A stretch of DNA of 39,240 nucleotides from a virus. The DNA lies in IMG/VR virus record IMGVR_UViG_3300027754_000211, positions 1 to 39,240 of that record. One strand, 5' to 3'. Shown piece by piece: positions 2,840 to 25,623 of this stretch (its first letter is position 1; each line of letters begins with the position of its first letter). The notes under the pieces are model-generated. The model saw only the letters and a program-made list of their open reading frames with translations, did not search any database and had not been told where the DNA came from. Made by a program: the position numbers and the translations under genes.

Positions 2840-3276
2840 TGGCAAATTTATCATCAAATACATATTTAGAAAGTGGGATGCATCAGTATGGTATCTTTAC
2901 ATTAAATAATACCAATGGTGCAAATGGAACATATATTCATATGGAAACCAATATAACTCAACCATCTTCAAATATTATGGTTATGATTGAAGCAGTTGGA
3001 TATAATTATGGAACATCTCTACCAATTAGATGTGCATGGAATTTTTATTCATATGCATATGTAATAGGTAATGTAAATAATTCATCATATACCGGATTGA
3101 GTGCAGATGGTGTATATTACGCTACGTCGGGGTATGTAGCAATTAGAGCGTATGCAAGTAATTTACATTATTGTGGATTTACATTAAATGCATATCAAGT
3201 AGCAGGGAATGGATACCAACAACCAATATCAATAAGAAGAGCATCACAAAACACAACATCAGGAACATATTATTAA
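2839..3276 (+). CDS. Small probable fibre-tip protein, paralogue 2 of 3
   Basis: 145 residues from the ATG at 2839, which overlaps the previous stop by one base. An upstream in-frame ATG at 2758 lies inside the previous gene and is not preferred. The protein keeps the family signature: Y-I-H-M-E-T-N, V-M-I-E-A-V-G-Y-N-Y-G, R-C-A-W-N-F-Y-S-Y, G-V-Y-Y-A-T-S-G-Y, F-T-L-N-A-Y and a final Y-Y. The first ~25 residues and the loops differ most between the three paralogues, while the core is conserved, as expected for a duplicated surface module. Function is not known. Confidence 0.75.
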   Translation: MANLSSNTYLESGMHQYGIFTLNNTNGANGTYIHMETNITQPSSNIMVMIEAVGYNYGTSLPIRCAWNFYSYAYVIGNVNNSSYTGLSADGVYYATSGYVAIRAYASNLHYCGFTLNAYQVAGNGYQQPISIRRASQNTTSGTYY

Positions 3277-3278
3277 TT

Positions 3279-3725
3279 ATGGCAACACTACAAGCACCTT
3301 TAAGAATTTATCCAAATAGTACATGGTCACTCCAACAAAGATATATTGGTGCATTTAATACTGGTTCCGGCAGTCCAACTTATATTCATATCAAAACAAA
3401 TTTAAGTACGGGTGGTGATGTTATGTATATGTTTGAAGCAGTCGGTTATAATTATGGAAATGGAAATAGTGTAAGATGTGCATGGGGATTGTATGCTTAT
3501 CAAAATGTTTTATATCATACAGGTGTACAAACCGCATATGGTGGATTATCTGCAGACGGAATATATGTATCATCGGATAATTATGTATGTTTAAGGGGAT
3601 ATATGAACTCACATTATTATCAAGGATTTATAATAAATGCATATCCAACCAGAACCGATACTACACACTACAATGTTTCAATAACGGCAATATCGCAAAA
3701 TTCAACATCGGGAAATTATTATTAA
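3279..3725 (+). CDS. Small probable fibre-tip protein, paralogue 3 of 3
   Basis: 148 residues from the ATG at 3279, two bases after the previous stop. The longer in-frame ORF from 3171 would overlap paralogue 2 by about 100 bases and is rejected. The signature is again present: Y-I-H-I-K-T-N, M-F-E-A-V-G-Y-N-Y-G, R-C-A-W-G-L-Y-A-Y, G-I-Y-V-S-S-D-N-Y and a final Y-Y. Three adjacent, coupled and diverged copies argue for tandem duplication followed by divergence. A role in host binding is inferred from the position only. Confidence 0.75.
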   Translation: MATLQAPLRIYPNSTWSLQQRYIGAFNTGSGSPTYIHIKTNLSTGGDVMYMFEAVGYNYGNGNSVRCAWGLYAYQNVLYHTGVQTAYGGLSADGIYVSSDNYVCLRGYMNSHYYQGFIINAYPTRTDTTHYNVSITAISQNSTSGNYY

Positions 3726-7315: not shown

Positions 7316-8425
7316 ATGATAAGAGAATCAATGACGGTAACCGGTTCCGTAGACGTAAGTAGTGAATTTGTCTTACCATATGGAACAAGAGAAAATAGAC
7401 CATCATCTCCGGATAGTGGTTCTTTATATTTACAAACATCTCAAACGGGTAGTGCAATTTGGGTTTATAGTGGTGTAGCAAATAGAGAATTAGGTTGGGA
7501 AGTATTGGGTGAACAAAATGATTATGCTCCAACGTTTTTTTATAGACAAATTATAAATTATGCATATACGGCGGGTGGATATATAAATTCATCTCCGTGG
7601 AAAACTGTTCATAAAACAGTAGCAGCAACTGACCAAACAACAAATATAGGAGACCTATTAGATTATCCATCGTCATATTCATCAGGAGCATGTAGTAAGA
7701 GTATTTTATTTATGTGGTCGGTAAATACAAGTGGTGCATGGAGGTCGGCAACCGATGTTGCAGATACATATACATCGGCAGTTAATATGGTTAATGAAAC
7801 AAATTATGCACATCAATCTAAATTTGATATGACATATGCAAGAGATAACTTAGGAACGGTGTGGCAAGAAACTGAATTTGCATGGATGTTTGGTGGTAGT
7901 GTATCTAATGTTGAAAAATTCAATTTAACAAATGAATCAATGTATGTCCGTTCAGGCTGGACTTCATTAACATCTACATTGGGTTGTGCAGGAATGTCTG
8001 ACCAAGATTGGGGATATGTTTATGGTTCGGAGAGTGGTATTAAAGTTGCATACGCAACCGATAGTGTATATACAACCACACAATGGGGCCCATCAGGACA
8101 ACAAAAAGGTATTAGTTCTAAAATAGGAAGAGGATATTGTGGTAATGAGGGAACATATAATGGTGGATATAACTTAAGAAGATGGCAATTAAAAAACGAA
8201 ACTAATTTGGGAACCGTTCCAAAACCACATCCAAATTGTGGAGAAGAAAACTTTACACTAGGACAAGATTGGCAATATATGGTAGGCAATTATGATGGTA
8301 CTGGACAAAATAACACTAGCTGGAAATTTTATTATACAACCGAAAGTGGAACTGTAAACCCATCTGGATTAGCACCAACTGCACATGGTGGCCAATCATC
8401 AGGACATTGCGGATGGAGAAACTAA
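7316..8425 (+). CDS. Fibre-associated virion protein, paralogue A
   Basis: 369 residues, start 3 nt after the previous stop. The N-terminus (residues 1-55) carries the VTGS segment and a G-T-R-E-N-R-P-S-S-P-D-S-G-S-L-Y pattern typical of phage fibre attachment regions. The rest is a repeated aromatic/Gly beta structure with S-S-P-W-K-x-V-H-K-x-V-x-A-T-D-Q-T, E-T-E-F-A-W-M-F-G-G and several Q-K-G-I-S-S-K / R-R-W-Q segments, possibly propeller-like. It ends in C-G-W-R-N. It is the same length as the next gene and clearly homologous along its whole length. I recall similar sequences among T4-like marine phage structural proteins without known function. Virion location is inferred from the module. 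Confidence 0.7.
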   Translation: MIRESMTVTGSVDVSSEFVLPYGTRENRPSSPDSGSLYLQTSQTGSAIWVYSGVANRELGWEVLGEQNDYAPTFFYRQIINYAYTAGGYINSSPWKTVHKTVAATDQTTNIGDLLDYPSSYSSGACSKSILFMWSVNTSGAWRSATDVADTYTSAVNMVNETNYAHQSKFDMTYARDNLGTVWQETEFAWMFGGSVSNVEKFNLTNESMYVRSGWTSLTSTLGCAGMSDQDWGYVYGSESGIKVAYATDSVYTTTQWGPSGQQKGISSKIGRGYCGNEGTYNGGYNLRRWQLKNETNLGTVPKPHPNCGEENFTLGQDWQYMVGNYDGTGQNNTSWKFYYTTESGTVNPSGLAPTAHGGQSSGHCGWRN

Positions 8426-8434
8426 AAATTTACA

Positions 8435-8443
8435 ATATTTATA
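8435..8443 (+). promoter_or_regulatory. Putative late promoter box ATATTTATA
   Basis: Exact 9-mer, 16 nt before the ATG at 8460, in the short gap between the two paralogues. Spacing is identical to the box before 4046. Confidence 0.6.
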
Positions 8444-8459
8444 AAAAAGATATTAAGAT

Positions 8460-9569
8460 ATGATATACGAAAATTTGGTAGTTACCGGTTCACTTAAAGT
8501 AACATCAGGATTAGTGGGTGTTCCAAAAAACACAAAGGCAAATAGACCGGGTAGTCCTACTTCGGGGTCTTTATTTTTTCAACAATCTCCAAGTTCTAGT
8601 TTGTTATATGTTTATACGGGTATACCTAATAACGATAGTGGTTGGGAAGCAGTGGGTAACCAAGCTGCACCTTATAATTCATTCAAATATCGTCAAATTA
8701 TTAACTATGGATATGTTGCCGGTGGTTATAAAGATTCATCTCCATGGAAAAATGTTCATAAAGCAGTATCCGCAACCGACCAAACATCACATTTAGGACA
8801 ATTAATGGATTATCCCGCGAACTATACAAAAGGTGCATGTAGCAAAACAATTCTTTGGATATTTTCCTCAAATACAGGCAATGCATTCACAGGCCCCTCT
8901 ACAGTTTCGGACACATATACTACGGCAGTTAATATGGTAACCGAAACAGGATATACACACCAAACTAAATGGGATATCACAACAGCAAGAGCAGATTGTG
9001 GTGTAATGTTTCAAGAAACAGAGTTTGCATTTATATTCGGTGGATATGCTTCAACTGTAGATGTTTTTAATATGACAACCGAAATATGTTTAACAGGACA
9101 AGGATTATCATCGGTTGGTGGTGCAGAGACCTCTACCGCATTTTCCGATGAAAATAGTGGATATGGTTATACCGATAGTGTAGGAATAAAAATGAATTAT
9201 GCAAATAGAACATTTACTTCAACAACACAATGGGGAGCACATGGTCAACAAAAAGGAATTAGTAGTAAAAATGGTAAGGGATATGCTGGAAATGAAGGTT
9301 CTTATAATGGTGGAAACAATTTAAGAAGATGGCAATTTTCAACAGATACTAATGCCGGTAATGTAACTAAACCAGAAACTAATACGGGAGAAGAAAACTT
9401 TACAATGGGACAAGATTGGCAATATATGTTGGGTAATTATAATGGTTTACAAAATAATAATAACTGGAAGTTTTATTACGCAACCGACAGTGGAACTGCA
9501 GGAGTTAGTGGTTTATCACCAACCGCACAGGCAGGCCAATCATCAGCAATTTGTGGATGGAGACAATAA
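8460..9569 (+). CDS. Fibre-associated virion protein, paralogue B
   Basis: 369 residues, homologous throughout to the preceding gene: same N-terminal VTGS and K-A-N-R-P-G-S-P-T-S-G-S-L segment, Y-R-Q-I-I-N-Y, S-S-P-W-K-N-V-H-K, A-T-D-Q-T, E-T-E-F-A-F-I-F-G-G, N-N-L-R-R-W-Q, G-Q-D-W-Q-Y-M and a C-G-W-R-Q ending. Divergence is spread along the length rather than confined to a cassette, so this looks like an older duplication than the fibre-shaft repeats. Unlike paralogue A, it has its own upstream promoter box. Probably a second adhesin or fibre-connecting protein; function unproven. Confidence 0.7.
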   Translation: MIYENLVVTGSLKVTSGLVGVPKNTKANRPGSPTSGSLFFQQSPSSSLLYVYTGIPNNDSGWEAVGNQAAPYNSFKYRQIINYGYVAGGYKDSSPWKNVHKAVSATDQTSHLGQLMDYPANYTKGACSKTILWIFSSNTGNAFTGPSTVSDTYTTAVNMVTETGYTHQTKWDITTARADCGVMFQETEFAFIFGGYASTVDVFNMTTEICLTGQGLSSVGGAETSTAFSDENSGYGYTDSVGIKMNYANRTFTSTTQWGAHGQQKGISSKNGKGYAGNEGSYNGGNNLRRWQFSTDTNAGNVTKPETNTGEENFTMGQDWQYMLGNYNGLQNNNNWKFYYATDSGTAGVSGLSPTAQAGQSSAICGWRQ

Positions 9570-11785: not shown

Positions 11786-12784
11786 ATGAATTTTGCAATA
11801 AATGGTTCCTGTTCTAAAGGTTGTTCATTTTGTTTCACCAAAGAAGATGCTAGATTAAAACATACATTGGGTGAAATGAGTATTGATATGGCTGAAAAGT
11901 TAATAACTCATTACAAAATAAAAGATAATAGGGAAGAAATTACAATATTAGGTGGAGAACCTACTCAACATTCAAACTTTTCAGGTTTAATTGATTATAT
12001 ATTTTCCAAAGGCCTTAAAGTTAATTTAGTTAGTAATTTATTATTTGGAAATATTATAAAAGATTATCTAATTAATAATATTAGAAATATCAAATGGATG
12101 TTACCAAATGCAGCAGAATTGGATGAGAAAAATAGATTACCAATATTCAAAAAGAATTATTTAGAATTATATCATGCATACCAAAATACATGGGGATTTG
12201 AAGAAAGTCCAAGATTGTATTTAGCATTAACCATTTCATCGGATTGGGAAAAACGAAACATATATGAATATATTAAATGGTTATATTTGGCATTAGATGG
12301 TAAAGTAAATGCAATTCGTTTAGGAATAGATTTGACAGGAACATACTTACTTAATAATAAAGAATTGGGTAAAGAAATAACAAAGATTTTGAAATTTGGA
12401 GAATACAATGATATTTTAATTACATCGGATTGTCAAGTTCCACCCTGTTTATGGGAAGGAAAAACAAAAGAAGCTGTATACGAAAATTCGTTGGGATTTG
12501 CAACTTTCAAAATAGCAAACTATGATACGATTTGTGGATATATGCCATTGGATGTTTTTCCGGATGGTAGTTCTATTCATTGTTATCCGTTACAAGACAA
12601 AGTAAAAATAGATAATGTATTAAATATTGTGGGTGAAGATAGACCACAAAGTTTAAGAGATACATTTGATAATTTATATATTGAAAACCATAAAAATTAT
12701 ACACTACCTACAATATGTCAGGAGTGTACATTCTACCCAAATGATTGTAATGGAATTTGTGGTGGATGTTTAGAAGGAAATTAG
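11786..12784 (+). CDS. Radical SAM protein with SPASM-like C-terminal cysteines
   Basis: 332 residues, start one base after the previous stop. C9-x3-C13-x2-C16 at the very N-terminus is the [4Fe-4S] motif of radical SAM enzymes, followed by L-G-G-E-P-T (SAM binding) at ~55-60. The C-terminal ~100 residues contain C-Q-V-P-P-C, I-C-G-Y, a P-D-G-S-S-I-H-C segment, and a final cluster C-Q-E-C-x6-C-x3-C-x2-C. This layout is that of SPASM/twitch domains that carry auxiliary Fe-S clusters. SPASM proteins mostly modify peptides or proteins. No separate small precursor peptide gene is visible nearby, so an existing phage or host protein could be the substrate. The class is strongly supported; the reaction is not. 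Confidence 0.85.
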   Translation: MNFAINGSCSKGCSFCFTKEDARLKHTLGEMSIDMAEKLITHYKIKDNREEITILGGEPTQHSNFSGLIDYIFSKGLKVNLVSNLLFGNIIKDYLINNIRNIKWMLPNAAELDEKNRLPIFKKNYLELYHAYQNTWGFEESPRLYLALTISSDWEKRNIYEYIKWLYLALDGKVNAIRLGIDLTGTYLLNNKELGKEITKILKFGEYNDILITSDCQVPPCLWEGKTKEAVYENSLGFATFKIANYDTICGYMPLDVFPDGSSIHCYPLQDKVKIDNVLNIVGEDRPQSLRDTFDNLYIENHKNYTLPTICQECTFYPNDCNGICGGCLEGN

Positions 12785-12786
12785 TT

Positions 12787-13812
12787 ATGAAAAAAATATT
12801 CTCAGTCCCACTTAATCCAATGATTTCCGAAAAAGATTTCTTTGAAAAGTTTTACCCATTCTTACACAAATATAAAGATTGGATTTATGACATTTATTTT
12901 ACTTGTAGAGTACCACCATTTGGACAAGATGCAATGGGTTCTGTATTTGTATCGGAAGATAAAACGACTTTATTTGATAATGCATTAATGATACAAAAAT
13001 CTTTAGGTATTAGAATCAGTGCAACTTTCAATAATGTAAATATATCACCAAAGTATGACAATTATAAATTATTTGTTGACAACTTAAAACCTTTATACGA
13101 TAGAGGATTGAGATGCATTACTATTCCACATGCACATTGGGTATCAATGGGTTTACACAATGAGTTTCCTGAAATGGAAATTAAAAATACAATTCTTAGA
13201 AAGGTTGCAACTGGACAAGATTTTATCTATGCAGCAGAACAAGGATTTGACTATGTTAATTTGGATAGAATATTAATGAGAGACATTGAAGAATTAAAAA
13301 ATATCAAAAGAGCACAAACTCACTTCTACGAAAAAACAGGTAAATATGTTAAAATATCTTTACTTACAAACGAAGGATGTTTGGGCAGATGTCCTATGAT
13401 GGATGAACATTACTCTTATAATAATTTAAGAGAAGATAATGAACTTCCATATTTTAGACATGAAATATCAAAACATACTTGTGAATATAAATGGGAAGAT
13501 GAGATTAACGCATTCTTCTTTAAGACGGGAGTAATTCCACCATTTAAGAAAGAGTATGATGAGTTTTTGGAGTATATTGATGTCTTTAAGATGCATGGTA
13601 GGGATAGTTTGAACAGATTGGATGAAACCATTGAAATCGTATCAAACTACGCAGAAGGTAACGAAATACTTGCTAATGCATCGGAGATTTATTTGGATGG
13701 AATACCTTCGGAAGAATTGAGAGGTTGGAGAAATAAAATTAAAAAATGTAAATTTCAATGTTGGGATTGTAATTATTGTGAAATTGTTGCAGAACATAAA
13801 AAGAAAAAATAA
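12787..13812 (+). CDS. TIM-barrel protein resembling peptidase U32 family
   Basis: 341 residues from the ATG at 12787, three bases after the radical SAM stop. An in-frame ATG at 12757 would overlap that gene and begins poorly. The middle has I-T-I-P-H-A-H, a F-D-Y-V-N-L-D-R-I-L-M-R-D segment, then V-K-I-S-L-L-T-N-E-G-C-L-G-R-C-P; the last part ends in C-K-F-Q-C-W-D-C-N-Y-C. The D-R-x-L-x-R-D strand followed by a G-C-L-x-x-C turn is reminiscent of U32 'peptidases' (YhbU/UbiU type), which bind a [4Fe-4S] cluster and act in RNA or ubiquinone hydroxylation. The number of cysteines supports a metal cluster. Family assignment is moderate; a radical-SAM partner role is an alternative. Confidence 0.55.
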   Translation: MKKIFSVPLNPMISEKDFFEKFYPFLHKYKDWIYDIYFTCRVPPFGQDAMGSVFVSEDKTTLFDNALMIQKSLGIRISATFNNVNISPKYDNYKLFVDNLKPLYDRGLRCITIPHAHWVSMGLHNEFPEMEIKNTILRKVATGQDFIYAAEQGFDYVNLDRILMRDIEELKNIKRAQTHFYEKTGKYVKISLLTNEGCLGRCPMMDEHYSYNNLREDNELPYFRHEISKHTCEYKWEDEINAFFFKTGVIPPFKKEYDEFLEYIDVFKMHGRDSLNRLDETIEIVSNYAEGNEILANASEIYLDGIPSEELRGWRNKIKKCKFQCWDCNYCEIVAEHKKKK

Positions 13813-14474
13813 TGGACTTAATTGAACATATAGAAAAATCATTACATTGGTCTGATTTGGAAGTATCTAAATTAAGACAAGATGTATTAGACATTCCAGG
13901 AATTAGTAGTAACAAAGTTAAAATGTTTTTGAATAACCTTTGTAGTTTGCCCAATTCAACATATTTGGAAATTGGAGTATATAGAGGTTCAACATTTTGT
14001 TCAGCAATTTATGGTAATGATATAACAGCAATTGGAATTGATAATTGGAGTGCACCATTCATAACACCATCTAACCCAACACATAAAATGAATTCAATAT
14101 TTAAGCAAAGGGCTGAAAACCCAAAGGATGAATTTTTGAATAATGTAAAAAAGTATGGTAAGGTAGAAAACATAAAAGTATTTAGAGCAAATTATTTGGA
14201 TTTTGATTATACAACAATTCCACAAGTTGATATTATTTTTTATGATGGTGAGACTAAATTTTTTGACAGATATAATATAATAAAAAAATTATTACCTGCA
14301 ATGAAAAATGAATGTATTATAATATTTGATGATTGGAATTGGGAAAATGATAAAGCACTACAATCAATAAAAGATAGTGGTTTATTTATAAAATACCAAA
14401 AAAACATATATACAAAAGGTGAAGATGCAACCGATTATTGGAATGGATTGGGTATCTTTATCTTACAAAAATAA
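13812..14474 (+). CDS. Class I SAM-dependent methyltransferase
   Basis: 220 residues, start overlapping the previous stop (TAATGG). Residues ~55-62 hold motif I (Y-L-E-I-G-V-Y-R-G-S-T), followed by I-G-I-D-N-W (acidic SAM ribose ligand), a D-I-I-F-Y-D-G-E segment and I-I-F-D-D-W-N-W. This is the pattern of Methyltransf_24-type enzymes, often found with sugar or tail-modifying genes. The substrate is unknown. It closes the coupled set oxygenase, radical SAM, U32-like, methyltransferase. No transcription terminator was found behind it, so transcription may run on into 14501. Confidence 0.8.
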   Translation: MDLIEHIEKSLHWSDLEVSKLRQDVLDIPGISSNKVKMFLNNLCSLPNSTYLEIGVYRGSTFCSAIYGNDITAIGIDNWSAPFITPSNPTHKMNSIFKQRAENPKDEFLNNVKKYGKVENIKVFRANYLDFDYTTIPQVDIIFYDGETKFFDRYNIIKKLLPAMKNECIIIFDDWNWENDKALQSIKDSGLFIKYQKNIYTKGEDATDYWNGLGIFILQK

Positions 14475-14500: not shown

Positions 14501-15373
14501 ATGAAAAAACAGCTATCGCTTTTGTTAGCAACATTGTTTATTGTAATTGCTTCATTTAGTCAATATAGTAGCAGTGCAATAAAACAGGGAGTTGGTGAGG
14601 TTAAAAAGGACACAATAGAAAACACTTTGGAAGAAGTGATTGTATCTGCAAAACCTTATCCTCAATTTAAGTTAGTTGGTGACTACAAACAACCAGCATG
14701 GACATTAGTCCGCAAGTTTCCATCTACAAGAGTATATGTAATGACACCTCCGGGTACTATTATGTATGAAAAGTGGTTTGATGTTAGAACTCCAAGAGAT
14801 GGGTCACCTTCCGAAGTTAGAATGAGAGATGAATTTGCATTTGGACTTGGTAAAAGATTGGAATTAGATTTTTATATGCATACGGTCTATAAAAACAACA
14901 ACGAAGCTTTATCTACATTTGGATTTAGAGGATTTAGTTGGGAAGTTAGATATGCATTGGCAGATTGGGGTAAAATTCCAGGCAATCCAACACTTTATTT
15001 TGAACACAAACTATTAAACCAAAAAAGACAAGGCATAGAACCTAAGATTTTATTGGGAGATAGAATTGGTAAAAAAGGTATTTGGGGTTTGAATTTAATT
15101 TTAGAAGCAGATGTTGCAAAATTAAGAAAAGACCAAAATAGAGAGTGGGCATACACAGCATCTTATGGAAACATCGTTAATGATGATTTAACAATGGGAA
15201 TTTCTCATATGTTTAGATATAATGATGTAAAACAAACACAAGAGTGGTATGTCGGCCCATTGGTTCAGTATCGTTTTAACGGACATGGTTATTTGAATGT
15301 CGAACATATGCCAGGTTTGAATGACGCTGCAAAAAAATCTAGAACCATAATAATATTTGGATGGAGATTTTAA
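14501..15373 (+). CDS. Secreted small outer-membrane barrel with TonB-box-like segment
   Basis: 290 residues. M-K-K followed by a hydrophobic stretch L-S-L-L-L-A-T-L-F-I-V-I and A-S-F-S-Q is a clear Sec signal peptide of the Bacteroidota type. Residues 43-50 read L-E-E-V-I-V-S-A, close to the TonB box of TonB-dependent transporters. There is no room for a plug domain. The remaining ~200 residues alternate polar and aromatic residues like beta strands (L-E-L-D-F-Y-M-H, T-L-Y-F-E-H-K, W-G-L-N-L-I-L) and end in F-G-W-R-F, the C-terminal Phe typical of BAM-assembled barrels. The leader is A/C-rich like host genes. The gene overlaps the next by 13 nt. It is likely a moron acting on the infected cell, not a virion part; function inferred. 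Confidence 0.7.
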   Translation: MKKQLSLLLATLFIVIASFSQYSSSAIKQGVGEVKKDTIENTLEEVIVSAKPYPQFKLVGDYKQPAWTLVRKFPSTRVYVMTPPGTIMYEKWFDVRTPRDGSPSEVRMRDEFAFGLGKRLELDFYMHTVYKNNNEALSTFGFRGFSWEVRYALADWGKIPGNPTLYFEHKLLNQKRQGIEPKILLGDRIGKKGIWGLNLILEADVAKLRKDQNREWAYTASYGNIVNDDLTMGISHMFRYNDVKQTQEWYVGPLVQYRFNGHGYLNVEHMPGLNDAAKKSRTIIIFGWRF

Positions 15374-16365
15374 TTAAAGGACAAGAATTTCTTATCTATT
15401 TAATGTTAATAATGTTCATAACAGGTATCCTCAAAGAAAGAGGGTACCTGATGGACGTTTTTAAGTTATTGGAACAAAGGGTAAAGTCAAAAAGATTAGT
15501 AGTATTTTTAGTATCACTATTTGGAGGTATCTTACCAATTCCAGGTAGAGTTGCAATTTCGGCAAGTATGTTGAATACCATTGCACCTATCGATAGACAG
15601 AAAAGAAAGAAATTTGGTGTGATTGATTATTTAGCAACACATCATTATTACCTGTGGTCTCCCTTAGAAAAAACAGTTATTATTCCTATGGCAGTTTTGG
15701 GATTGACTTATATGCAATTTATGTCATACATTTGGCCACTATTACTAATATCGGGTTTATACATTGGATATTATATTACATCATTAAAAGAAGATGAGAT
15801 TGAAATTGATACAAAAGATGAACCTATAAATTGGAAGAACATTGGATTGGTAGTTTTACCCTTCCTTTTGACAATATTAATAAGTTGTGTTACGGATTAT
15901 TACTTTGCAGCATTTACTGCATTTACGACTTATTTAATAACATATTCAAATAGTTGGAAAAAACTATTAAGTTATATCAACTGGCAATTGGTTTTTATTG
16001 TTGCCGGTATAATTATATTAGGTAATTTTATCAACTCATACTATTCATTAATGGAATCTTATATAAAAACATATAATAATCCAAAAAATATATTAGTAGT
16101 ATCAGTTATTTCATTTTTAGTATCGTTTTTATTGGGGTCATCAACTAAGTATGCAAGCATAGTTAGTTTGTTGACAAGTGTGTTTGGAATGCATTATTTT
16201 GTATTATTTTTTACATTAGAATATTCGGCATATTTGATATCACCATCCCATAAATGCTTGCCAATAGGTCAAAAATATTTCCACACCGGATTTATGACAT
16301 ACTTAAAGGCATTGATAATTTGGATAAGTATTATGATAACATATGCTATCACAACTATTTTGTAA
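15361..16365 (+). CDS. DUF401-family integral inner-membrane protein
   Basis: 334 residues with about nine or ten hydrophobic segments. After the second segment comes G-G-I-L-P-I-P-G-R-V-A-I-S-A, and near the end I-S-P-S-H-K-C-L-P-I-G-Q-K-Y-F; both are landmarks of DUF401 membrane proteins, a group related to ion/organic-acid permeases. Bacterial members are somewhat longer, so this is a compact version. The ATG lies inside the last codons of the outer-membrane gene, which predicts translational coupling and a joint role of the two membranes. A transporter function is inferred from the family; no substrate is known. Membrane permeases of this kind are unusual between tail-fibre genes. Confidence 0.75.
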   Translation: MEILIKGQEFLIYLMLIMFITGILKERGYLMDVFKLLEQRVKSKRLVVFLVSLFGGILPIPGRVAISASMLNTIAPIDRQKRKKFGVIDYLATHHYYLWSPLEKTVIIPMAVLGLTYMQFMSYIWPLLLISGLYIGYYITSLKEDEIEIDTKDEPINWKNIGLVVLPFLLTILISCVTDYYFAAFTAFTTYLITYSNSWKKLLSYINWQLVFIVAGIIILGNFINSYYSLMESYIKTYNNPKNILVVSVISFLVSFLLGSSTKYASIVSLLTSVFGMHYFVLFFTLEYSAYLISPSHKCLPIGQKYFHTGFMTYLKALIIWISIMITYAITTIL

Positions 16366-16412: not shown

Positions 16413-18716
16413 ATGGCAGCAATATTTCAAATTAGAAGGGGTACATCTAACGAAACATTAACGGATGGTGAATTATATCTACATAAAGGTATTGGTTCTA
16501 TTCAATTTGGTAGTGGTTCTAGTAACGTAATTACATTATTACCATTAAATGCACCTGTAAATGGTAATATCAATTTAATTGGTAATATATCTGCTTCCGG
16601 TGATGTTAGAATCGGTGGAAACATTTATTTAGGAGATAATTTGGCAAATGATAGTGTAAATGTAAACTCACCTTTTAGTGGTTCACTTATCCCATCTGGT
16701 TCGAACATATTTGATTTAGGTAGTAACACATATAAATATAAAAATGTATACGCAACATCTATATCAGGAGCAATAGCATCAACAAACGGAGTAGTTTCGG
16801 GTTCATCTCAAATAACTTATGTAAACATCTCTTCTATACCAGCAGGAATAGTAAGTGGCAGCTCACAAGTTTTAGGAGGAACAGGAATACTTTCGGGTTC
16901 TTCACAAGTAACACCATTATTACCAACAGGTACAGTAAGTGGTTCTTCACAAATTACATACGCAAGTATTAGTTCTATCCCATCAGGTATAGTAAGTGGA
17001 GCTGCACAAGTAACACCATTATTACCAACGGGTGTAATTTCTGGTTCATCTCAATTGAATAATACAACAATTACAAATTTAACAGTAACAAATTTGACAA
17101 CTGTTAATGAAACTGCAAGTGTTTTATTCAGTAGTGGTTCAAATAGATTCGGAGATTTTGGTGATGACATACATAGTTTTACCGGGTCAGTCAAAATTAG
17201 TGGTTCAACTATAATAACAGGTAGTGTATCAGCAACATCATTTAATGGTACAATAAACGCAACCAATGGTGTAGTTTCAGGTTCATCTCAAATTACATAC
17301 GCAAATATTTCTTCTATTCCAGTTGGTATTGTAAGTGGTTCATCTCAAATAACTTACGCAAATATATCTTCTATACCTGCAGGAATTGTAAGTGGTTCAT
17401 CACAAACTATTGCAAACTTACCAACGGGTACAGTTTCGGGTTCTTCTCAAATAACTTACGCAAATATATCTTCTATACCTGCAGGAATTGTAAGTGGTTC
17501 ATCACAAACTATTGCAAACTTACCAACGGGTACAGTTTCGGGTTCTTCTCAACTCACATCATCATACGATACAAGATACTCTTTGAGTGGAAGTATATTA
17601 ACGTCATTCTCAACATCGGTAGATTATAGATTGGATGAGGTTGAATACACAGCATCTTTATTTGGAGGAGGAATCACAGCCCAATTGGATAAAATAAACC
17701 AAGCTACTGCATCTTTACAATCTAAAACAGGCTCATACGCAACAACTGGTTCAAATTCATTTAACGGAAGTCAACAAATTACGGGTTCATTATTGGTATC
17801 ACAAAATATTACCGGTTCTGCATCAGCATCATTTGTATCATTAGCAGTTAACACAACAACACCTGCACAAAAAATACATTTGAAAGGTATAGTTGGTATT
17901 GAAGCCGGAACTACCGGAGGTAATACCGCTGACCAAATTGTATTTGGTTATAATGGTAGTGGTCTTAGTCAATATAATCATAAAATCCAAACCGGACACG
18001 ATGCACAAGCTGCATTGAATAAATTGGATTTCCTTATTGCAGATGGTGCACAAACACAAAAAAATATTTTACAATTAAGACATGATAGAGTAATCACAAA
18101 TGGTAGTGCATATATTACGGGTTCTCTTATTGTAACGGGTTCAATTATAGGTACAATTGCAGCAACAAATGGTGTAGTAAGTGGTTCATCTCAAATTAAC
18201 TTTACACAATTAAGTGGAATTAGTAATGGTATTGTATCGGGTTCATCTCAAACCATTGCAAACTTACCAACGGGTACAGTAAGTGGTTCAATACAAGTAT
18301 TGGGTGGTTCTACAATTCATAGTGGTTCATCTGGTGATTATCAATTTAATTCAATTGGAGTTGGAACTGCGGCAACTACGGTAGCAGGTGAAATTAGAGC
18401 AATGAATGATATTACTGCATTCTATTCATCGGATATTCGTTTGAAAGAAAATATACACCCAATTCAAAACGCATTAGAAAAAGTTGAATCTATTAGTGGT
18501 AACACATATGATTGGAAAGTGGGATATGAAGAATTCCATTCTCATAAAGGAAATGATATTGGAGTAATTGCACAAGAAATTGAACAAATATTACCACAAA
18601 TTGTAACAAATAGAGACAATGGATACAAAGCAGTTCAATACGAAAAGATTGTACCATTACTAATTGAAGCAATAAAAGAATTATCAGCTAAAGTTAAGGA
18701 ATTGGAAAGCAAATAG
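16413..18716 (+). CDS. Tail fibre with S74 intramolecular chaperone
   Basis: 767 residues. The N-terminus F-Q-I-R-R-G-T-S-N-E-T-L-T-D-G-E-L-Y is the RRGT/GELY virion-attachment motif of many phage fibres. Residues ~20-480 are VSGSSQI/ISSIP repeats, including a perfect 102-bp duplication. A short segment around 365-395 (L-D-E-V-E-Y-T-A-S-L) may be coiled coil. The S74 chaperone begins at S673-D-I-R-L-K678-E-N with the canonical Ser-Lys pair, followed by I-G-V-I-A-Q-E and a C-terminal helix. The chaperone should be cut off after trimerisation. Shaft DNA is shared with the fibres at 3, 4046 and 18765. Confidence 0.9.
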   Translation: MAAIFQIRRGTSNETLTDGELYLHKGIGSIQFGSGSSNVITLLPLNAPVNGNINLIGNISASGDVRIGGNIYLGDNLANDSVNVNSPFSGSLIPSGSNIFDLGSNTYKYKNVYATSISGAIASTNGVVSGSSQITYVNISSIPAGIVSGSSQVLGGTGILSGSSQVTPLLPTGTVSGSSQITYASISSIPSGIVSGAAQVTPLLPTGVISGSSQLNNTTITNLTVTNLTTVNETASVLFSSGSNRFGDFGDDIHSFTGSVKISGSTIITGSVSATSFNGTINATNGVVSGSSQITYANISSIPVGIVSGSSQITYANISSIPAGIVSGSSQTIANLPTGTVSGSSQITYANISSIPAGIVSGSSQTIANLPTGTVSGSSQLTSSYDTRYSLSGSILTSFSTSVDYRLDEVEYTASLFGGGITAQLDKINQATASLQSKTGSYATTGSNSFNGSQQITGSLLVSQNITGSASASFVSLAVNTTTPAQKIHLKGIVGIEAGTTGGNTADQIVFGYNGSGLSQYNHKIQTGHDAQAALNKLDFLIADGAQTQKNILQLRHDRVITNGSAYITGSLIVTGSIIGTIAATNGVVSGSSQINFTQLSGISNGIVSGSSQTIANLPTGTVSGSIQVLGGSTIHSGSSGDYQFNSIGVGTAATTVAGEIRAMNDITAFYSSDIRLKENIHPIQNALEKVESISGNTYDWKVGYEEFHSHKGNDIGVIAQEIEQILPQIVTNRDNGYKAVQYEKIVPLLIEAIKELSAKVKELESK
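17343..17552 (+). repeat. Perfect 102-bp tandem duplication in fibre shaft
   Basis: Positions 17343-17450 are identical to 17445-17552 (period 102 bp, 34 codons, frame kept). Perfect identity implies a very recent duplication or conversion. Confidence 0.85.
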
Positions 18717-18764: not shown

Positions 18765-20513
18765 ATGGCACTTAAATTTAGACGTGGGACAGCCGCACAA
18801 AAATCAGGCTCATTGGCTTTTGGAGAACCATATGTGAATACCACATTGGGAACATTACAAGTTGGTTTAGACACAGGAGATGTAACACTTACAGCAGTAG
18901 GCCCTACAACTCAATTAGAAATACAATCAATTTCAGCTTCTGCATTTATTTCAGCATCAAGTATACGCTCTACAAATGGAATAACCGGTTCAATTGCAGC
19001 AACAAACGGAGTAGTTTCGGGTTCTTCACAAATAACTTATACAAGTATTAGTTCTATTCCAGGTGGTATAGTAAGTAGTTCAGTACAAGTTTTAGGAGGA
19101 ACGGGAATAGTTTCGGGTTCTTCACAAATAACTTATACAAGTATTAGTTCTATTCCAGGTGGTATAGTAAGTAGTTCAGTACAAGTTTTAGGAGGAACGG
19201 GAATAGTTTCGGGTTCTTCACAAATAACTCCATTATTACCAACGGGTGTAATTTCTGGGTCATCACAATTAAGTGGAACTACAATTACAAATTTAACAGT
19301 AACAAATTTGACAACTGTTAATGAAACGGCATCTGTTATATTTAGTAGTGGTTCAAATACATTTGGTGACTTTGGTAATGATACACATAATTTTACAGGT
19401 TCAGTTAAAATAAGTGGCTCAATTACAACAATAGGTGCCTCAACTGCAACTACATTCAATGGTACAATAAATTCGACTAATGGTGTAGTTTCGGGTTCAT
19501 CACAAATTACTTATACGGGAATTTCTTCTATTCCAGGTGGCATAGTATCGGGTTCTTCTCAAATCACATACGCAAATATTTCTTCTATTCCAGGTGGCAT
19601 AGTATCGGGTTCATCACAAACAATTGCAAACTTACCAACGGGTACAGTAAGTGGTTCTATACAAGTATTGGGTGGAACGGGAATTGTTTCCGGTTCTTCA
19701 CAAATAACTTATACAAGTATTAGTTCTATTCCAGGTGGTATAGTAAGTGGTTCTACACAAGTAACACCATTATTACCAACAGGTACAGTAAGTGGTTCTT
19801 CACAAGTATTAGGTGGAACAACAATTCACAGTGGTTCATTTTTCAATGGTATTAGTGTAGTTTCAGGTTCAGCACAAATAGATGGTTCTTTATTAGGTTC
19901 AAATAAAACAATAACAATTGGTTCAACATCGACTACATTAGGTGGAACTTCAACAACAATAGCAGGTTTAACATCTGTAACTTCAACTACATTTGTAGGA
20001 GCATTGACCGGTAATGTAACAGGTAATGTGAGTGGAACGGCCGCTACAGTTACAACTGCAGCACAATCAGCTATCACATCAGTTGGTACGTTGACTACTT
20101 TGACGGTAAGTGGAGCAACCGCAACGGGAGCATTAACAGTAACCGGAGCAGTAACCGCAACTGGTGATATTACGGCATTCTTTACTTCGGATAAAAGACA
20201 TAAGAATAATATTCAAACTATTCCAAACGCTTTAGAAAAAGTAACTAAATTGAATGGTGTAACTTGGGAATGGAATGATGATGTGAATGAAGTAACAAAA
20301 TCAACTCCTAAAACAGGTTTGATAGCACAAGAAGTACAAGAAGTATTACCAGAAGTAGTTAAAACTAGAGATGATGGTTTCTTAGCATTAGACTATTCAA
20401 AAATGATGGGTTTAATGGTAGAAGCAATGAAAGAACAACAAACACAAATCGAAAAATTAAGAATGGATTTAGATAATTACGAATGTAAATGTGATAATTG
20501 CAAATCTAAATAA
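18765..20513 (+). CDS. Tail fibre with S74 chaperone and Cys-rich C-terminus
   Basis: 582 residues. It starts with L-K-F-R-R-G-T-A-A-Q and G-E-P-Y-V-N, the same attachment motif as the previous fibre. The shaft is VSGSSQI/ISSIPGG repeats with a 96-bp tandem duplication. Residues ~385-460 have T-T-I-A-G-L-T-S-V-T-S repeats also seen in the 1088-residue fibre. The S74 domain begins at S475-D-K-R-H-K480-N-N, then T-G-L-I-A-Q-E-V and L-P-E-V-V. After the usual C-terminal helix there is an extra tail with C-K-C-D-N-C-K-S-K, not found in the other fibres. An AGAAGG stretch precedes the start by 9 nt, the only Shine-Dalgarno-like site I noticed. Confidence 0.9.
   Translation: MALKFRRGTAAQKSGSLAFGEPYVNTTLGTLQVGLDTGDVTLTAVGPTTQLEIQSISASAFISASSIRSTNGITGSIAATNGVVSGSSQITYTSISSIPGGIVSSSVQVLGGTGIVSGSSQITYTSISSIPGGIVSSSVQVLGGTGIVSGSSQITPLLPTGVISGSSQLSGTTITNLTVTNLTTVNETASVIFSSGSNTFGDFGNDTHNFTGSVKISGSITTIGASTATTFNGTINSTNGVVSGSSQITYTGISSIPGGIVSGSSQITYANISSIPGGIVSGSSQTIANLPTGTVSGSIQVLGGTGIVSGSSQITYTSISSIPGGIVSGSTQVTPLLPTGTVSGSSQVLGGTTIHSGSFFNGISVVSGSAQIDGSLLGSNKTITIGSTSTTLGGTSTTIAGLTSVTSTTFVGALTGNVTGNVSGTAATVTTAAQSAITSVGTLTTLTVSGATATGALTVTGAVTATGDITAFFTSDKRHKNNIQTIPNALEKVTKLNGVTWEWNDDVNEVTKSTPKTGLIAQEVQEVLPEVVKTRDDGFLALDYSKMMGLMVEAMKEQQTQIEKLRMDLDNYECKCDNCKSK
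19012..19229 (+). repeat. 96-bp tandem repeat in fibre shaft
   Basis: Two full copies (19012-19107 and 19108-19203) appear identical and a third begins and breaks off at 19229. The period is 32 codons and stays in frame. Confidence 0.8.
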
Positions 20514-20535: not shown

Positions 20536-21534
20536 ATGTATGATGTTTACTACACTACCGCAGGAGGACCCTGGTTCAATAGCGGAGCTGATATATGGGT
20601 AACTAATTGGATAAAAGAAGTGGCACCTGATTTAGAAGTCAAGCCACTTCTTATTTTCCATAGAAAAAAGCCTACAAATTACGAAGAATTTCCAATTGAT
20701 ATTGACCATGTTTGGGAAACCAACGAAGATAAAATTATTGAAATCTTTGAAGGTGCAAGAAGGATACATATATTACATGGTCATTATACTCCAACCAGAG
20801 CTATTCATCAAAACCTGGAAAAGATTGATTCAATAATTTTTCACAATTTAACCAAAGTGTCTTTAATGGCACAAATGGGAAAAGATGAATACTTACATTG
20901 GTATGGTAATTGGGAATATGAATCGGAATTAATTGATAAAATAAAAAATAAAATTTGGGTAGGATTGTATCATTTTCCATATCAAACGGAAAACTTACAT
21001 CACATACCAAATAATTATACATTTATACAAAATAACGAACTTTCAAACTCAATAGAATTAGGATACGCAGCAAGAGTTGAAGGTAGAAAAAATGTTGAAT
21101 ATATGGATGGGTTAGGTGGATACATTTCTACCAATTCAGAAACATTCAACAAATATTATAAAAAAAAATATGGATATAAATTTGAGAAATCAAAAATTTA
21201 CAAGTTTGATTACAAATATAAAGAAAGGTTCTACGGACTTGATTGGGGAATATCTCATTCTTGTTTTGAATATGAACCATTCGGATATGGAATTTTTGAA
21301 GCAGTGGATTGGGGTAAACTTCCAATACTACATGAAAAATGGTACGTTCCACTTGATTATAAGTACAAAGCGAATAGTAAGGAAACATTTAAGGAAACCT
21401 ACGAGACAATTTGTAAAGATGATTGGGAAACGAAGAAAAATGAATTTGAAAAACTTAAAAATTGGATGATAGAACACTTCTCTAATAAGGATGTGTGGAA
21501 AGATAAACTTTTAGATATTTATAACGGAGAATAA
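20536..21534 (+). CDS. GT-B-type glycosyltransferase
   Basis: 332 residues. Near residues 240-265 is H-S-C-F-E-Y-E-P-F-G-Y-G-I-F-E-A-V-D-W-G-K-L-P-I. It contains the E-x7-E motif and the G-x-P-type turn that bind the nucleotide-sugar donor in GT4-like retaining glycosyltransferases. Earlier, L-G-Y-A-A-R-V-E-G-R-K-N matches the R...K region at the start of the C-terminal Rossmann domain. The N-terminal half has G-G-P-W-F-N-S-G-A-D and H-G-H-Y-T. There is no membrane segment. It sits between a fibre and a lectin-like protein, so it may glycosylate virion proteins or host surface glycans (inference). Confidence 0.75.
   Translation: MYDVYYTTAGGPWFNSGADIWVTNWIKEVAPDLEVKPLLIFHRKKPTNYEEFPIDIDHVWETNEDKIIEIFEGARRIHILHGHYTPTRAIHQNLEKIDSIIFHNLTKVSLMAQMGKDEYLHWYGNWEYESELIDKIKNKIWVGLYHFPYQTENLHHIPNNYTFIQNNELSNSIELGYAARVEGRKNVEYMDGLGGYISTNSETFNKYYKKKYGYKFEKSKIYKFDYKYKERFYGLDWGISHSCFEYEPFGYGIFEAVDWGKLPILHEKWYVPLDYKYKANSKETFKETYETICKDDWETKKNEFEKLKNWMIEHFSNKDVWKDKLLDIYNGE
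21515..21523 (+). promoter_or_regulatory. Putative late promoter box ATATTTATA inside gene end
   Basis: Exact 9-mer within the last codons of the glycosyltransferase gene, 22 nt before the ATG at 21546. Confidence 0.45.
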
Positions 21535-21545
21535 CACTTTATACT

Positions 21546-23279
21546 ATGGCAAGAACAAATTTATCGTTAGGGAATTTACACAGAGCAGTAAGCGGTTCAA
21601 CAAGAAGTGGACAAGCATCTATGGGACAATTGGGTGGTAACACAGTAAATGGTTCGTTGATAGGATTTGCAACTGATGGTATTACAGTAACAGTTCCAAC
21701 TTATACTTACATAGTAGAAAGCACCGAAGAAACGGCACAATTTTCATTTAGTTTAACAGGTTCTTTATTTTATTCCAAAGTTCAACAACAATATAACAAT
21801 TATACTTGTTCATTTGACAATGCAAATTTTACAACAGGTAGTAAGGCAGTAACATCCGGCCCTACTATATTTCCAATGACACCTGCAGCAGTTGCAGCTG
21901 CAAACTATTCGGAAGCTAGTTCAATTTTAACAATGAAATATCAAGATGGATATAATATTAATGCAACTAATTATGGTACAGTAACTACTAAAACATTATA
22001 CGCAGTAGATGTTTATAATACAATTAACCAACCTGATTTCTGTCTATTATTTGGTACAAAAATACAATTAGCAAATGGTACGGAAATAAATGTTGAAGAT
22101 TTGAATATTGGTGATGAAATAAAAGCCTGGGTTCCAACTGGATTACCTGATGAAACTTTGGATGGTGCCGACTCCGGTGAAACTGAATGGAGATTTTTTC
22201 AACAAACGGAAATATCAGGCAATGCACAAAATGTAACCGTTTCCGATTTAACATTCAATTTTGCATCTGGATATTTCTCTCTTAATAATGGTTTAATAAA
22301 AGCAACCGAAACTCACCCATTATATGTTTGGGATAATGAAATTGAAAAATATAAATTCAAAAATGTAGGTGAAATTTTACCTGGAGATAAAGTAATAATG
22401 CAAGATGAAACAGAAGTGGTTGTATTTAATATTCAATTGATAACTGCGGATGTAGAAATTGTAACTGTAAATGTAGAAAATGCGGATGTATATATTTCAA
22501 ATGGTTTAATATCACATAACAAAGGGCAAGCGACTCAACCTCACATTCCATCATCTGGTTTAAGAATGTATTTAGAACCTGCAAAAACTGCATCATTTGC
22601 AGGGGCAACACTACCATCAACAGGAACACCAACGGAAGATTTATTAGATATGAGTGGGTATGGTACAGGTGTTAGACCTGGAGCACAATCACCATTAGCA
22701 TTAGCAAGTAGTAATCCATCTTATAATAATGGTGCAAGTAGAAAAGAAAGATATTATTCTTTTGATGGTGGTGACTTATTTTATAAAGATACAGCATCAA
22801 ATATCAATGGTGGTATTTCTCAATTCAATACTAATACCGGAACTATTCATATGTGGATAAGACCTACTACAACATTAGGTACAACTACAAGACACATTTT
22901 TGACTATGCGGGTTTTTATGGTTTAGCAATTGAATCATCGGATAGTTCTACTTTAAATAGAGTAAAATTCTATGGTAGTACATTAGGAAATAGTGCACAA
23001 TTAACGACTTCATTGCCATCAAACGTTTGGTATATGATTTCAGCAACATTCCAACCATCTGGAACTGTAACAGTTTATGTAGATAAAACATCGGTAGGAA
23101 CATTTACCGCATCAGCATTTACGGCACCATCATCTACGAACTATTTAACAATTGGTAGTAATAGTGCAAGAACAACATTCTGGAACGGACAAATTGGACC
23201 TGTATTATTCTACAATACATTACAATCAGCAGCATCAGTAGGACAAGTATATGATTATTTCTCTCCAACATACAAATAA
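21546..23279 (+). CDS. Hint (intein-like) domain plus LamG-like lectin virion protein
   Basis: 577 residues. Residues 1-165 are a virion-type head. Residues 166-325 form a Hint domain: C166-L-L-F-G-T-K-I starts block A, V-E-D-L-N-I-G-D-E-I follows, T254-E-T-H257 is the block B TxxH, and V-Y-I-S-N-G-L-I-S-H324-N325 is the C-terminal block. The next residue is K326, not Cys/Ser/Thr, so full splicing is unlikely; cleavage, as in bacterial intein-like (BIL) domains, is expected. There is no homing endonuclease insert. Residues ~334-577 are a concanavalin/LamG-type beta-sandwich (Y-Y-S-F-D-G, T-I-H-M-W-I-R-P, W-Y-M-I-S-A-T-F, V-Y-V-D, I-G-P-V-L-F-Y). It lies just before the sheath gene. Confidence 0.85.
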   Translation: MARTNLSLGNLHRAVSGSTRSGQASMGQLGGNTVNGSLIGFATDGITVTVPTYTYIVESTEETAQFSFSLTGSLFYSKVQQQYNNYTCSFDNANFTTGSKAVTSGPTIFPMTPAAVAAANYSEASSILTMKYQDGYNINATNYGTVTTKTLYAVDVYNTINQPDFCLLFGTKIQLANGTEINVEDLNIGDEIKAWVPTGLPDETLDGADSGETEWRFFQQTEISGNAQNVTVSDLTFNFASGYFSLNNGLIKATETHPLYVWDNEIEKYKFKNVGEILPGDKVIMQDETEVVVFNIQLITADVEIVTVNVENADVYISNGLISHNKGQATQPHIPSSGLRMYLEPAKTASFAGATLPSTGTPTEDLLDMSGYGTGVRPGAQSPLALASSNPSYNNGASRKERYYSFDGGDLFYKDTASNINGGISQFNTNTGTIHMWIRPTTTLGTTTRHIFDYAGFYGLAIESSDSSTLNRVKFYGSTLGNSAQLTTSLPSNVWYMISATFQPSGTVTVYVDKTSVGTFTASAFTAPSSTNYLTIGSNSARTTFWNGQIGPVLFYNTLQSAASVGQVYDYFSPTYK

Positions 23280-23349: not shown

Positions 23350-25623
23350 ATGGCAGAAAAATTAGTATCACCAGGCGTTTTCACAAGAGAAAATGACCTT
23401 TCATTCTTACAACAAGGTGTTGGAGAAATAGGAGCAGCATTCATCGGCCCTTTCAAAGAAGGCCCATTGGTTCCAACAATTGTAAATTCACAAGCTGAGT
23501 TTGAAACTTTGTTTGGAGTAGTAGATGACACTTACTATACTCCTTTAGCAGTTCAATCTTATTTAAGAGAAGCTGGAACCGCAACGATTGCAAGAGTAGC
23601 AGGTATTGGTGGATATACTGCACAAAATCCTTTATTATTAACTGCAACATCTGGAGCAGTAAGTGCATCGGTTGGTATACTTTTTCCTACTGATAAAAAT
23701 ACATTAACAACTGGATTGAGTGCTTCTACATATCAAACGGCAAGTAATGGTGATTTTGCTATTTTCATTAGTGGTTCTACTTCATTTACAGGAAGTACAT
23801 CACTTGACCCAGAAGATGTGAATGATATCGAATCCACATTTGGTACATCTCCATTTGGAAGTAAAGGTGCATATGTATATGCATTTTTCCAAAATCATAA
23901 CATAAATTTTACAGCTAACACATCGGCATCGGTTAATGTTTTGGATGACCAACCATTTACGTTTGATGCACAAGAAGCTTTGACTCCATTGATTAAATCT
24001 CAGTTAATTTCAGGTCAAAGATTTAATGTATTAAGATTTGTTACATTAGGTGCAGGTAACGCAGCTAATAGCAAAATTAAAATCGGTATTTCAAATATCA
24101 AACCAGCAGGTTCGGTAAGTGGAACTGATTATGGTACATTCTCAGTAGTTGTTAGAGGATATTCTGACACAAACAAAAAGAAAACAATTTTAGAAACTTA
24201 TAACAATGTGAATTTAGACCCTAATTCTCCTAACTATATCTCAAGAGTAATTGGTGATAGAAATAGAACAATCAACTCTGAAGGTAAAATTACAGAGCAT
24301 GGTGATTGGGTAGTTAATTCAAGATATGTTAGAGTTTGGAATAATAATGATGCAGACTATGTTGCACCTGAAGGAATACCGGTACAAGCCGTTCCTTATG
24401 GTCACGCTGCATATAAATTACCTGTTTTAGCAAATGCAACTTTATCTGCACGAATTCCAGCAGTAACTTTTGTAACTGCAACTGCTACACAATATGGTGG
24501 TATTGATTTAGATAATAATACGGATAACGCAATTTATATCAAACCAATCCCAACAGGAGCATTAACAGGTTCTAACGCAGTTTATTCTTTAGATGTAACT
24601 GATAGTTTAACATTAACTGGTTCAGTTTCAACCGATGTTGCAAAAAGACAATTTATTGTAGCATTCCAAGAAGGATTTGATGGTTTAAACCCAACAACTC
24701 CAATCTACAAAGGTTCGGACATTCTTCCTGGAAACACACAAGGATTTAACTTATCAACATCAACCGCAAGTGGTTCGGTAGCATATAGCAAAATGATTGC
24801 AGCTTTATCTAACACAGATGAGTATGATATCAATATGATTGTAGCACCTGGTGTTAATAGAGCAGACCACTCTTCAGTATTCACATCTATATTAGATATG
24901 GTTGAAGAAAGAAGTGACGCATTCTTTATTGCAGACGCAGGTAACGCAAACACATCATTATCAGCAACGGTAACACAAGCACAGTCAGTTGATTCTAACT
25001 ACGCAGCAGTTTACTACCCATGGATTAAGACTATCGACATCAATACAAACAAATTAATCACAGTTCCACCATCAGTATTATTACCAGGTGTATTCGCAGC
25101 AAACGATAACGTAGCTGGAGAATGGTTCGCACCAGCAGGTTTAAATAGAGGTGGTTTGACTGGAGCAGTTGCAGTATTGGATAGATTATCTCAAGCTGAA
25201 AAAGATACATTATATGAAAATAAAGTTAACCCAATCGTTCAATTCCCAGGACAAGGAATTGTAGTATTCGGACAAAAGACTTTACAAGATAAACCATCAG
25301 CATTGGATAGAATTAATGTAAGAAGATTATTATTAACAGTTAGAAAGTATATCGCTTCATCAAGCAGATACTTAGTATTCGAACAAAACTCAGCAGAGAC
25401 TAGAACTAAGTTCTTGAATATTGTTAATCCTTACTTAAATTCAATTCAAAGTAGACAAGGTTTATACGCATTCAGAGTTATAATGGATGAGTCAAACAAC
25501 ACACCTGATGTAATTGATAGAAACATCCTTAAAGGAGCTATCTACTTACAACCAACTAAGACAGCTGAATTCATTCAAATTGATTTCAACATCTTACCAA
25601 CAGGTGCAAGTTTTAACGGATAA
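23350..25623 (+). CDS. Contractile tail sheath protein (gp18-like)
   Basis: 757 residues (T4 gp18 is 659). The start L-V-S-P-G-V-F-T-R-E-N-D is the classic sheath N-terminus, followed by G-A-A-F-I-G-P-F and L-F-G. The C-terminal part has R-I-N-V-R-R-L-L-L-T-V-R-K-Y-I, F-E-Q-N-S-A-E-T-R and A-E-F-I-Q-I-D-F-N, which are the conserved C-terminal sheath elements. It polymerises around the tail tube and contracts on infection. The 3' half uses more C-ending codons (AAC, ATC, TAC) than the fibre genes, in keeping with high expression. It is followed directly by the tube gene. Confidence 0.95.
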   Translation: MAEKLVSPGVFTRENDLSFLQQGVGEIGAAFIGPFKEGPLVPTIVNSQAEFETLFGVVDDTYYTPLAVQSYLREAGTATIARVAGIGGYTAQNPLLLTATSGAVSASVGILFPTDKNTLTTGLSASTYQTASNGDFAIFISGSTSFTGSTSLDPEDVNDIESTFGTSPFGSKGAYVYAFFQNHNINFTANTSASVNVLDDQPFTFDAQEALTPLIKSQLISGQRFNVLRFVTLGAGNAANSKIKIGISNIKPAGSVSGTDYGTFSVVVRGYSDTNKKKTILETYNNVNLDPNSPNYISRVIGDRNRTINSEGKITEHGDWVVNSRYVRVWNNNDADYVAPEGIPVQAVPYGHAAYKLPVLANATLSARIPAVTFVTATATQYGGIDLDNNTDNAIYIKPIPTGALTGSNAVYSLDVTDSLTLTGSVSTDVAKRQFIVAFQEGFDGLNPTTPIYKGSDILPGNTQGFNLSTSTASGSVAYSKMIAALSNTDEYDINMIVAPGVNRADHSSVFTSILDMVEERSDAFFIADAGNANTSLSATVTQAQSVDSNYAAVYYPWIKTIDINTNKLITVPPSVLLPGVFAANDNVAGEWFAPAGLNRGGLTGAVAVLDRLSQAEKDTLYENKVNPIVQFPGQGIVVFGQKTLQDKPSALDRINVRRLLLTVRKYIASSSRYLVFEQNSAETRTKFLNIVNPYLNSIQSRQGLYAFRVIMDESNNTPDVIDRNILKGAIYLQPTKTAEFIQIDFNILPTGASFNG

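Follow-up and report, generated by a model that had tools for sequence, protein, structure and literature searches.

An intein-like Hint domain between a conserved N-terminal domain and an exchangeable lectin in a putative self-processing phage tail adhesin

The window, a 39,240-nucleotide stretch of viral DNA (IMG/VR record IMGVR_UViG_3300027754_000211, positions 1–39,240), carries on its plus strand a single ORF (21546–23279) encoding a 577-residue protein laid out as an N-terminal domain (residues 1–165), a Hint domain (166–325) and a LamG/ConA lectin part (326–577). The N-domain (21546–22040, +) starts with a SLGNLYRAVSGS..(S)LGxL motif and forms a conserved unit, fused to a Hint in all complete homologues; the original prediction calls this 165-residue domain a 'virion head', Pfam and PHROG searches with it returned no match, and the antibody matches produced by phmmer were taken as spurious, low-complexity hits. 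It is followed by a BIL-like Hint domain of 160 residues (22041–22520, +), assigned by fold, profile and conservation, whose landmarks lie in the ORF translation exactly where the original prediction had put them: the block A nucleophile Cys166 (22041–22043, +) at the N-terminal junction F165–C166 (QPDF-C166-LLFGT), the block B TxxH motif T254-E-T-H257-P (T254 to H257 at 22305–22316, +), and the block G pair H324–N325 (22515–22520, +) at the C-terminal junction N325–K326 (SNGLIS-H324-N325-K326-G327). The +1 and +2 residues are K326-G327 (22521–22526, +), with no Cys, Ser or Thr at +1. As had been proposed, the domain is devoid of an endonuclease, no such model being present among its Pfam matches. 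Behind it, a linker and the start of the C-terminal module (22527–22817, +), delimited by DNA comparison of pairs identical in N-domain and Hint, lead into a LamG/ConA-like lectin (residues 425–565; 22818–23240, +); the LamG-like sandwich suspected at this place was recognised by Pfam as Laminin_G_3 (E=5.5e-16, above its cut-off) and by Foldseek as a ConA-like fold, and is further set apart by its mosaicism.

Immediately downstream lies the tail sheath gene (23350–25623, +; Pfam Phage_sheath_1, PHROG tail sheath), which adjoins the Hint gene in 264 of 265 testable loci, the Hint gene being directly upstream. A self-processing adhesin next to a sheath gene had been considered unusual; the sheath neighbour holds, but Hints in tail-type phage proteins are not unique to this locus, occurring also in Erwinia/Dickeya jumbo phages, in Phage NCTB and in several proteins of T4-like phages and siphophages. 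The gene immediately upstream (20536–21534, +) encodes a 332-residue protein and keeps its position in 188/189 testable loci; database searches with it gave no match, and by eye it resembles a GT-B glycosyltransferase (EPFGYGIFEA..G.LPI). The second and third genes upstream of the Hint gene (18765–20513 and 16413–18716) are fibre genes, each with a C-terminal Peptidase_S74 domain (endosialidase chaperone), itself a self-cleaving module, and a third S74-like end was noticed by eye in the ORF at 15–2408.

That residues 166–325 constitute a genuine, BIL-like Hint domain is supported by modelling and by sequence profiles. In an AlphaFold2 model of the Hint alone, built from 74 divergent sequences (pLDDT 86.9, pTM 0.83), the predicted fold is indeed that of a Hint, and all 50 matches listed by Foldseek against the PDB are Hint-superfamily structures. 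The best among those listed are BUBL1 BIL2 (6y75, TM 0.69/0.78) and the C. thermocellum BIL (2lwy, 0.64/0.81), with inteins and Hedgehog ranking behind the BIL domains. A three-domain model from 59 full-length homologues is of moderate quality (mean pLDDT 66.5) with a mostly well predicted Hint core, and in Foldseek its Hint part retrieves the BIL domains 6y75 and 2lwy while its C-terminal part retrieves ConA-type folds. A model-free profile search of PDB sequences likewise returned 2lwy, a 'bacterial intein-like domain', at E=1.1e-9, as well as the Pho RadA intein (5e-7) and BIL2 (1.5e-6). The Pfam signal is weak (Hint_2 at E=0.02 for the window protein), and some family members match PT-HINT (weakly, in 18/76), Intein_splicing or Hint_2. 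A weak Pfam match to AXH, the ataxin-1 module, appears in 41/76 Hint members and may be a cross-match between beta-folds; in the window protein it falls below the cut-off (E=5e-4 for the whole protein) and was rejected, the region being accounted for by the Hint fold.

Among viral contigs at least 234 relatives were found, of which 80 were taken, and additional scans brought the alignment to 105 unique sequences. The Cys, TxxH and His-Asn residues highlighted by the original prediction are conserved throughout: C166, T254, H257, H324, N325, K326 and G327 are invariant in 105/105. In a 74-row alignment reaching down to 33% identity all seven positions are within its 27 invariant columns (p about 1e-6, if invariant columns were random over 176 positions). 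A second subfamily, retrieved by a query ending before the C-terminal junction, has a Hint identity of about 35% and a different lectin, and carries HNKG in every readable member. The Cys166 codon is TGT in all 105 sequences and K326 is encoded by AAA in 96 and AAG in 9, with synonymous codon variation seen at T254, H257, H324, N325, K326 and G327; these synonymous changes, together with a Hint dN/dS of about 0.29, like that of the flanking parts, indicate purifying selection. Within the N/Hint part, conservation is among the highest in the zones flanking both junctions. An exception to the BIL pattern is Asp314, present in 103/105 members where 2lwy has the block F His, a replacement that may make the C-terminal step slower or decouple it. 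A search of bacterial and archaeal genomes gave 44 pattern matches and no relatives, and thus no prophage version at that sensitivity.

The residue at +1 is the non-nucleophilic Lys in all 105/105 homologues, which rules out canonical intein chemistry. Among 80 viral loci sampled independently as a control by their intein-like C-terminus (pattern ANGILVHN, the typical intein end), +1 was Cys in 63, Ser in 6, Thr in 6, Lys in 1 and other residues in 4; with 75/80 Cys/Ser/Thr and 1/80 Lys, Lys+1 belongs to this adhesin family rather than to phage Hints at large. In a sample with +1 left free and Gly at +2, the residues other than Cys, Ser and Thr were Gly (3), Lys (2) and Phe (2, one being an evident chance ORF). 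The idea of Lys+1 as typical of phage Hints generally was dismissed on counts of 1/80 and 2/102, since other non-nucleophilic residues occur as well. From these sequences Lys is one among several non-nucleophilic choices at +1, yet fixed in this adhesin family. It does recur in other phage Hint proteins, including some with only 1–20 residues past the Asn: a search for NG-phi-phi-V-HNKG yielded 32 loci across several unrelated proteins, among them a phrog_32 tail-assembly protein, large proteins of 1378 to 1725 residues, some with two tandem Hints, and one of 2723 residues. Individual cases include two 1700-residue T4-like phage proteins (L416, L429) with two tandem Hints each and Lys after both His-Asn pairs, a tape-measure-like protein (L294) whose Hint has Val at +1, and a 768-residue protein on a 245-kb phage contig (L197/L199, G002) with about three tandem Hints, the last ending HNK*; the latter phage additionally encodes a member of the lectin-Hint family.

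Loci L022 and L149 are 99% identical in the N-domain and 96% in the Hint and only 35% in the lectin, the DNA identity between N/Hint-identical pairs dropping from about residue 330, just past the Hint, and the converse pairing, with a lectin identity of 96% and an N-domain identity of 59%, was also seen. Judged from these comparisons, N-domain and lectin vary independently and lectin cassettes are swapped at the C-terminal edge of the Hint. The Hint itself is always retained: 38/38 relatives found with an N-domain-only query possess it, in complete, contig-cut or frameshifted form, and no Hint-free homologue was found among more than 240 loci, a behaviour unlike that of a parasitic intein. Three candidates for separate split or lectin-only genes (L094, L109, L146) look like frameshifts instead.

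A divergent phage contig (L431) sheds further light on the relation between the three parts. Its syntenic orthologue starts with an N-domain (profile E=1e-17) into which about 160 additional residues are inserted. A C-terminal Hint (E=4e-39) closes the protein with HNKGTNDAP*, the stop standing seven residues past the Asn, and there is no lectin. The local gene order is an S74 fibre, a Hint protein ending THNVHAK*, a 335-residue homologue of the 332-residue upstream gene product (36% identity), and the lectin-free orthologue. The THNVHAK* protein (348 residues; 12631–13677 of that contig, minus strand) is a second Hint protein two genes from the orthologue, and the same contig encodes a glycosyltransferase family 7 domain fused to a Laminin_G_3 lectin (651–2156, minus strand), with two similar-looking genes after it. 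Taken together with the C-terminal Hints of jumbo phages and Phage NCTB, the orthologue shows that what is conserved is the combination of N-domain and Hint, to which the lectin is optional cargo. Since HNKG is kept there without a lectin, and Asn cleavage would free a mere 7-residue peptide, the conservation of Hint and Lys-Gly is not accounted for by release of the lectin alone, and lectin release as the purpose of the Hint is thereby weakened on sequence grounds.

Type A BILs offer the closest chemical framework for these observations. They form a thioester at the N-terminal junction and undergo Asn cyclisation at the C-terminal one, with cleavage dominant and some free-amine ligation, and they possess a C-terminal His-Asn and no +1 nucleophile (PMC4031507, PMC7664689). 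By analogy with this chemistry and with the isopeptide precedent of BIL2, autoprocessing without canonical splicing is the most likely reading, and on sequence, model and precedent we somewhat favour the 577-residue protein being the precursor of a tail-region adhesin that processes itself through a type A BIL-like Hint. In the proposed course of events Cys166, aided by T254 and H257, would attack the F165–C166 bond to place a thioester on the N-domain, and Asn325, aided by His324, could cyclise and cut the chain ahead of K326. Lys at +1 would block the usual transfer to a Cys, Ser or Thr side chain, so that either water would resolve the thioester, giving cleavage, or an amine would do so, giving ligation of the sort put forward for type A BILs. 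The chief outcome would be an N-domain of anchor type that is either split from the exchangeable lectin cassette or unconventionally re-joined to it. We infer the autoprocessing, the fate of the thioester and the presence of the protein in the virion; a cleavage-dominated outcome is the likeliest single one, though less probable than not. For an adhesin role the lectin must be kept on the particle, which double cleavage would prevent unless the lectin were bound or ligated.

An alternative is unconventional splicing or conjugation, in which an amine rather than a thiol or hydroxyl resolves the thioester. It could act in cis, the new alpha-amine or the epsilon-amine of K326 attacking so that N-domain and lectin are joined, or in trans, a lysine of another virion protein attacking so that the N-domain is covalently fixed to the particle. 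Free-amine ligation is the mechanism proposed for type A BILs (PMC4031507), a Lys-epsilon isopeptide bond has been reported for BUBL1 BIL2, whose fold matches best (PMC8616854), Lys+1 is invariant in the family and recurrent in other phage Hint proteins, and cyanophage S-CREM2 has a Hint-free anchor-plus-LamG protein, the very architecture expected from splicing. Gly, Phe, Ala and Val at +1 of other phage Hints, however, argue that Lys is no general requirement, and we regard such amine-resolved joining as rather unlikely. A bolder extension, in which HN-Lys-Gly would define a phage Hint class whose lysine amine resolves the thioester, so that the adhesin would be joined by an isopeptide or amide bond or phage proteins would be covalently cross-linked, with the Hint doubling as a fixed dock for exchangeable lectin cassettes, is a long shot.

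Alternatively, no processing may occur at all, the Hint being an inert spacer whose conserved residues could be kept for folding or through recent descent. Lys+1 is incompatible with canonical splicing, and the function of the whole protein might require a single chain. BIL and Hint domains can, moreover, be slow or inactive out of context. Yet Cys1, TxxH and HN are chemically specific, and they are invariant at about 35% Hint identity, where most positions change; an inert spacer would be expected to lose its Cys or Asn in some lineages, so that an idle Hint appears unlikely. A degenerate mini-intein in an adhesin gene, its +1 nucleophile recently lost, would have the same fold and motifs and is very improbable given Lys+1 in every homologue, the lack of an intein-free allele and a dN/dS of about 0.29, hence not that of a degenerate element; a canonical intein is excluded by Lys+1 and by the absence of a Hint-free allele.

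Returning to self-processing by a BIL-like domain, comparison with known systems indicates that type A BIL-like is the most fitting label for the Hint, on sequence and model. It resembles the C. thermocellum domain (2lwy) in fold, profile, Cys1, TxxH, C-terminal His-Asn, the lack of both an endonuclease and a +1 nucleophile, and size (about 130–160 residues, here 160). BILs occur where non-conserved proteins are hypervariable (PMC7765530), and the present domain similarly adjoins a variable stretch of such a protein, with lectin exchange at its border. It differs in residing in a phage tail-region adhesin, in its fixed Lys-Gly at +1/+2, in having Asp for the usual block F His, and in that its activity is a prediction. 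Tetrahymena BUBL1 BIL2 (6y75, 6tmm), the top structural match among those listed, is also a Hint between two flanking domains, in that case eukaryotic ubiquitin-like ones, and sets the precedent for a lysine-dependent isopeptide; in the phage Hint, what was seen in this regard is the Lys at +1 and the similarity in fold. Collagen-like tail proteins of jumbo phages (Erwinia/Dickeya Alexandravirus, phrog_38766) and the 'intein domain' proteins of Phage NCTB are tail-type proteins with a homologous Hint (tblastn E to 3e-10) that retains Cys1, TxxH and HN; there, however, the Hint is terminal, with a tail of 3–10 residues past HN, Thr, Ala or Lys at +1, and no lectin. The L431 orthologue and the other HNKG Hints of T4-like phages and siphophages have the HN-Lys-Gly end in common and lack a LamG domain after the Hint. 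PT-HINT domains of polymorphic toxins also precede an exchangeable C-terminal domain, whereas the cargo here is a Laminin_G_3 lectin rather than a toxin and the next gene encodes a tail sheath rather than an immunity protein. Class 1 inteins and the Hedgehog Hog-Hint share the fold and block A/B chemistry. The phage domain differs from the former in its Lys at +1 and in that every complete homologue of N-domain or lectin carries it, and from the latter in being followed by a LamG lectin and not by a sterol-recognition region.

The domain would accordingly be a variant of type A BILs in phages, not a new kind, with a mechanistic core that is plausible from sequence. The biochemistry of type A BILs has been described, but to our knowledge little has been established about what they do for the organisms that carry them. 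A large, uniform and strictly conserved phage family in which one +1 residue is fixed and the lectin can be exchanged is a tractable case for the role of BILs, for which tail adhesin maturation, cross-linking or host-range switching are candidates, and if active it would add further self-processing chemistry to phage tails besides the S74 intramolecular chaperone. The points of main interest are the fixed Lys-Gly, the swapping of lectins where the Hint ends, and the orthologue that lacks a lectin. Searches of the literature turned up no paper dealing with a BIL or Hint domain in the tail adhesin of a phage, and in the Dickeya AD1 paper neither inteins nor mass spectrometry gave a text match.

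Several other genes of the window deserve mention. Within the tail gene block, 11786–14474 encodes a radical-SAM protein, a 351-residue unknown and a methyltransferase-like product, and the N-terminal 100 residues of the radical-SAM protein show a weak, sub-cut-off viperin-like match (NCBIfam 4.5e-9, PADLOC pVip 2.7e-11). Amid structural genes, 15361–16365 encodes a membrane transporter-like protein of DUF401/TIGR00529 type (phrog_14035, unknown function, E=1.4e-81). Finally, tandem paralogues were recognised by eye at 2408–3725 and 7316–9569, three of about 140–180 residues and two of 369, which are probably repeated tail or fibre components.
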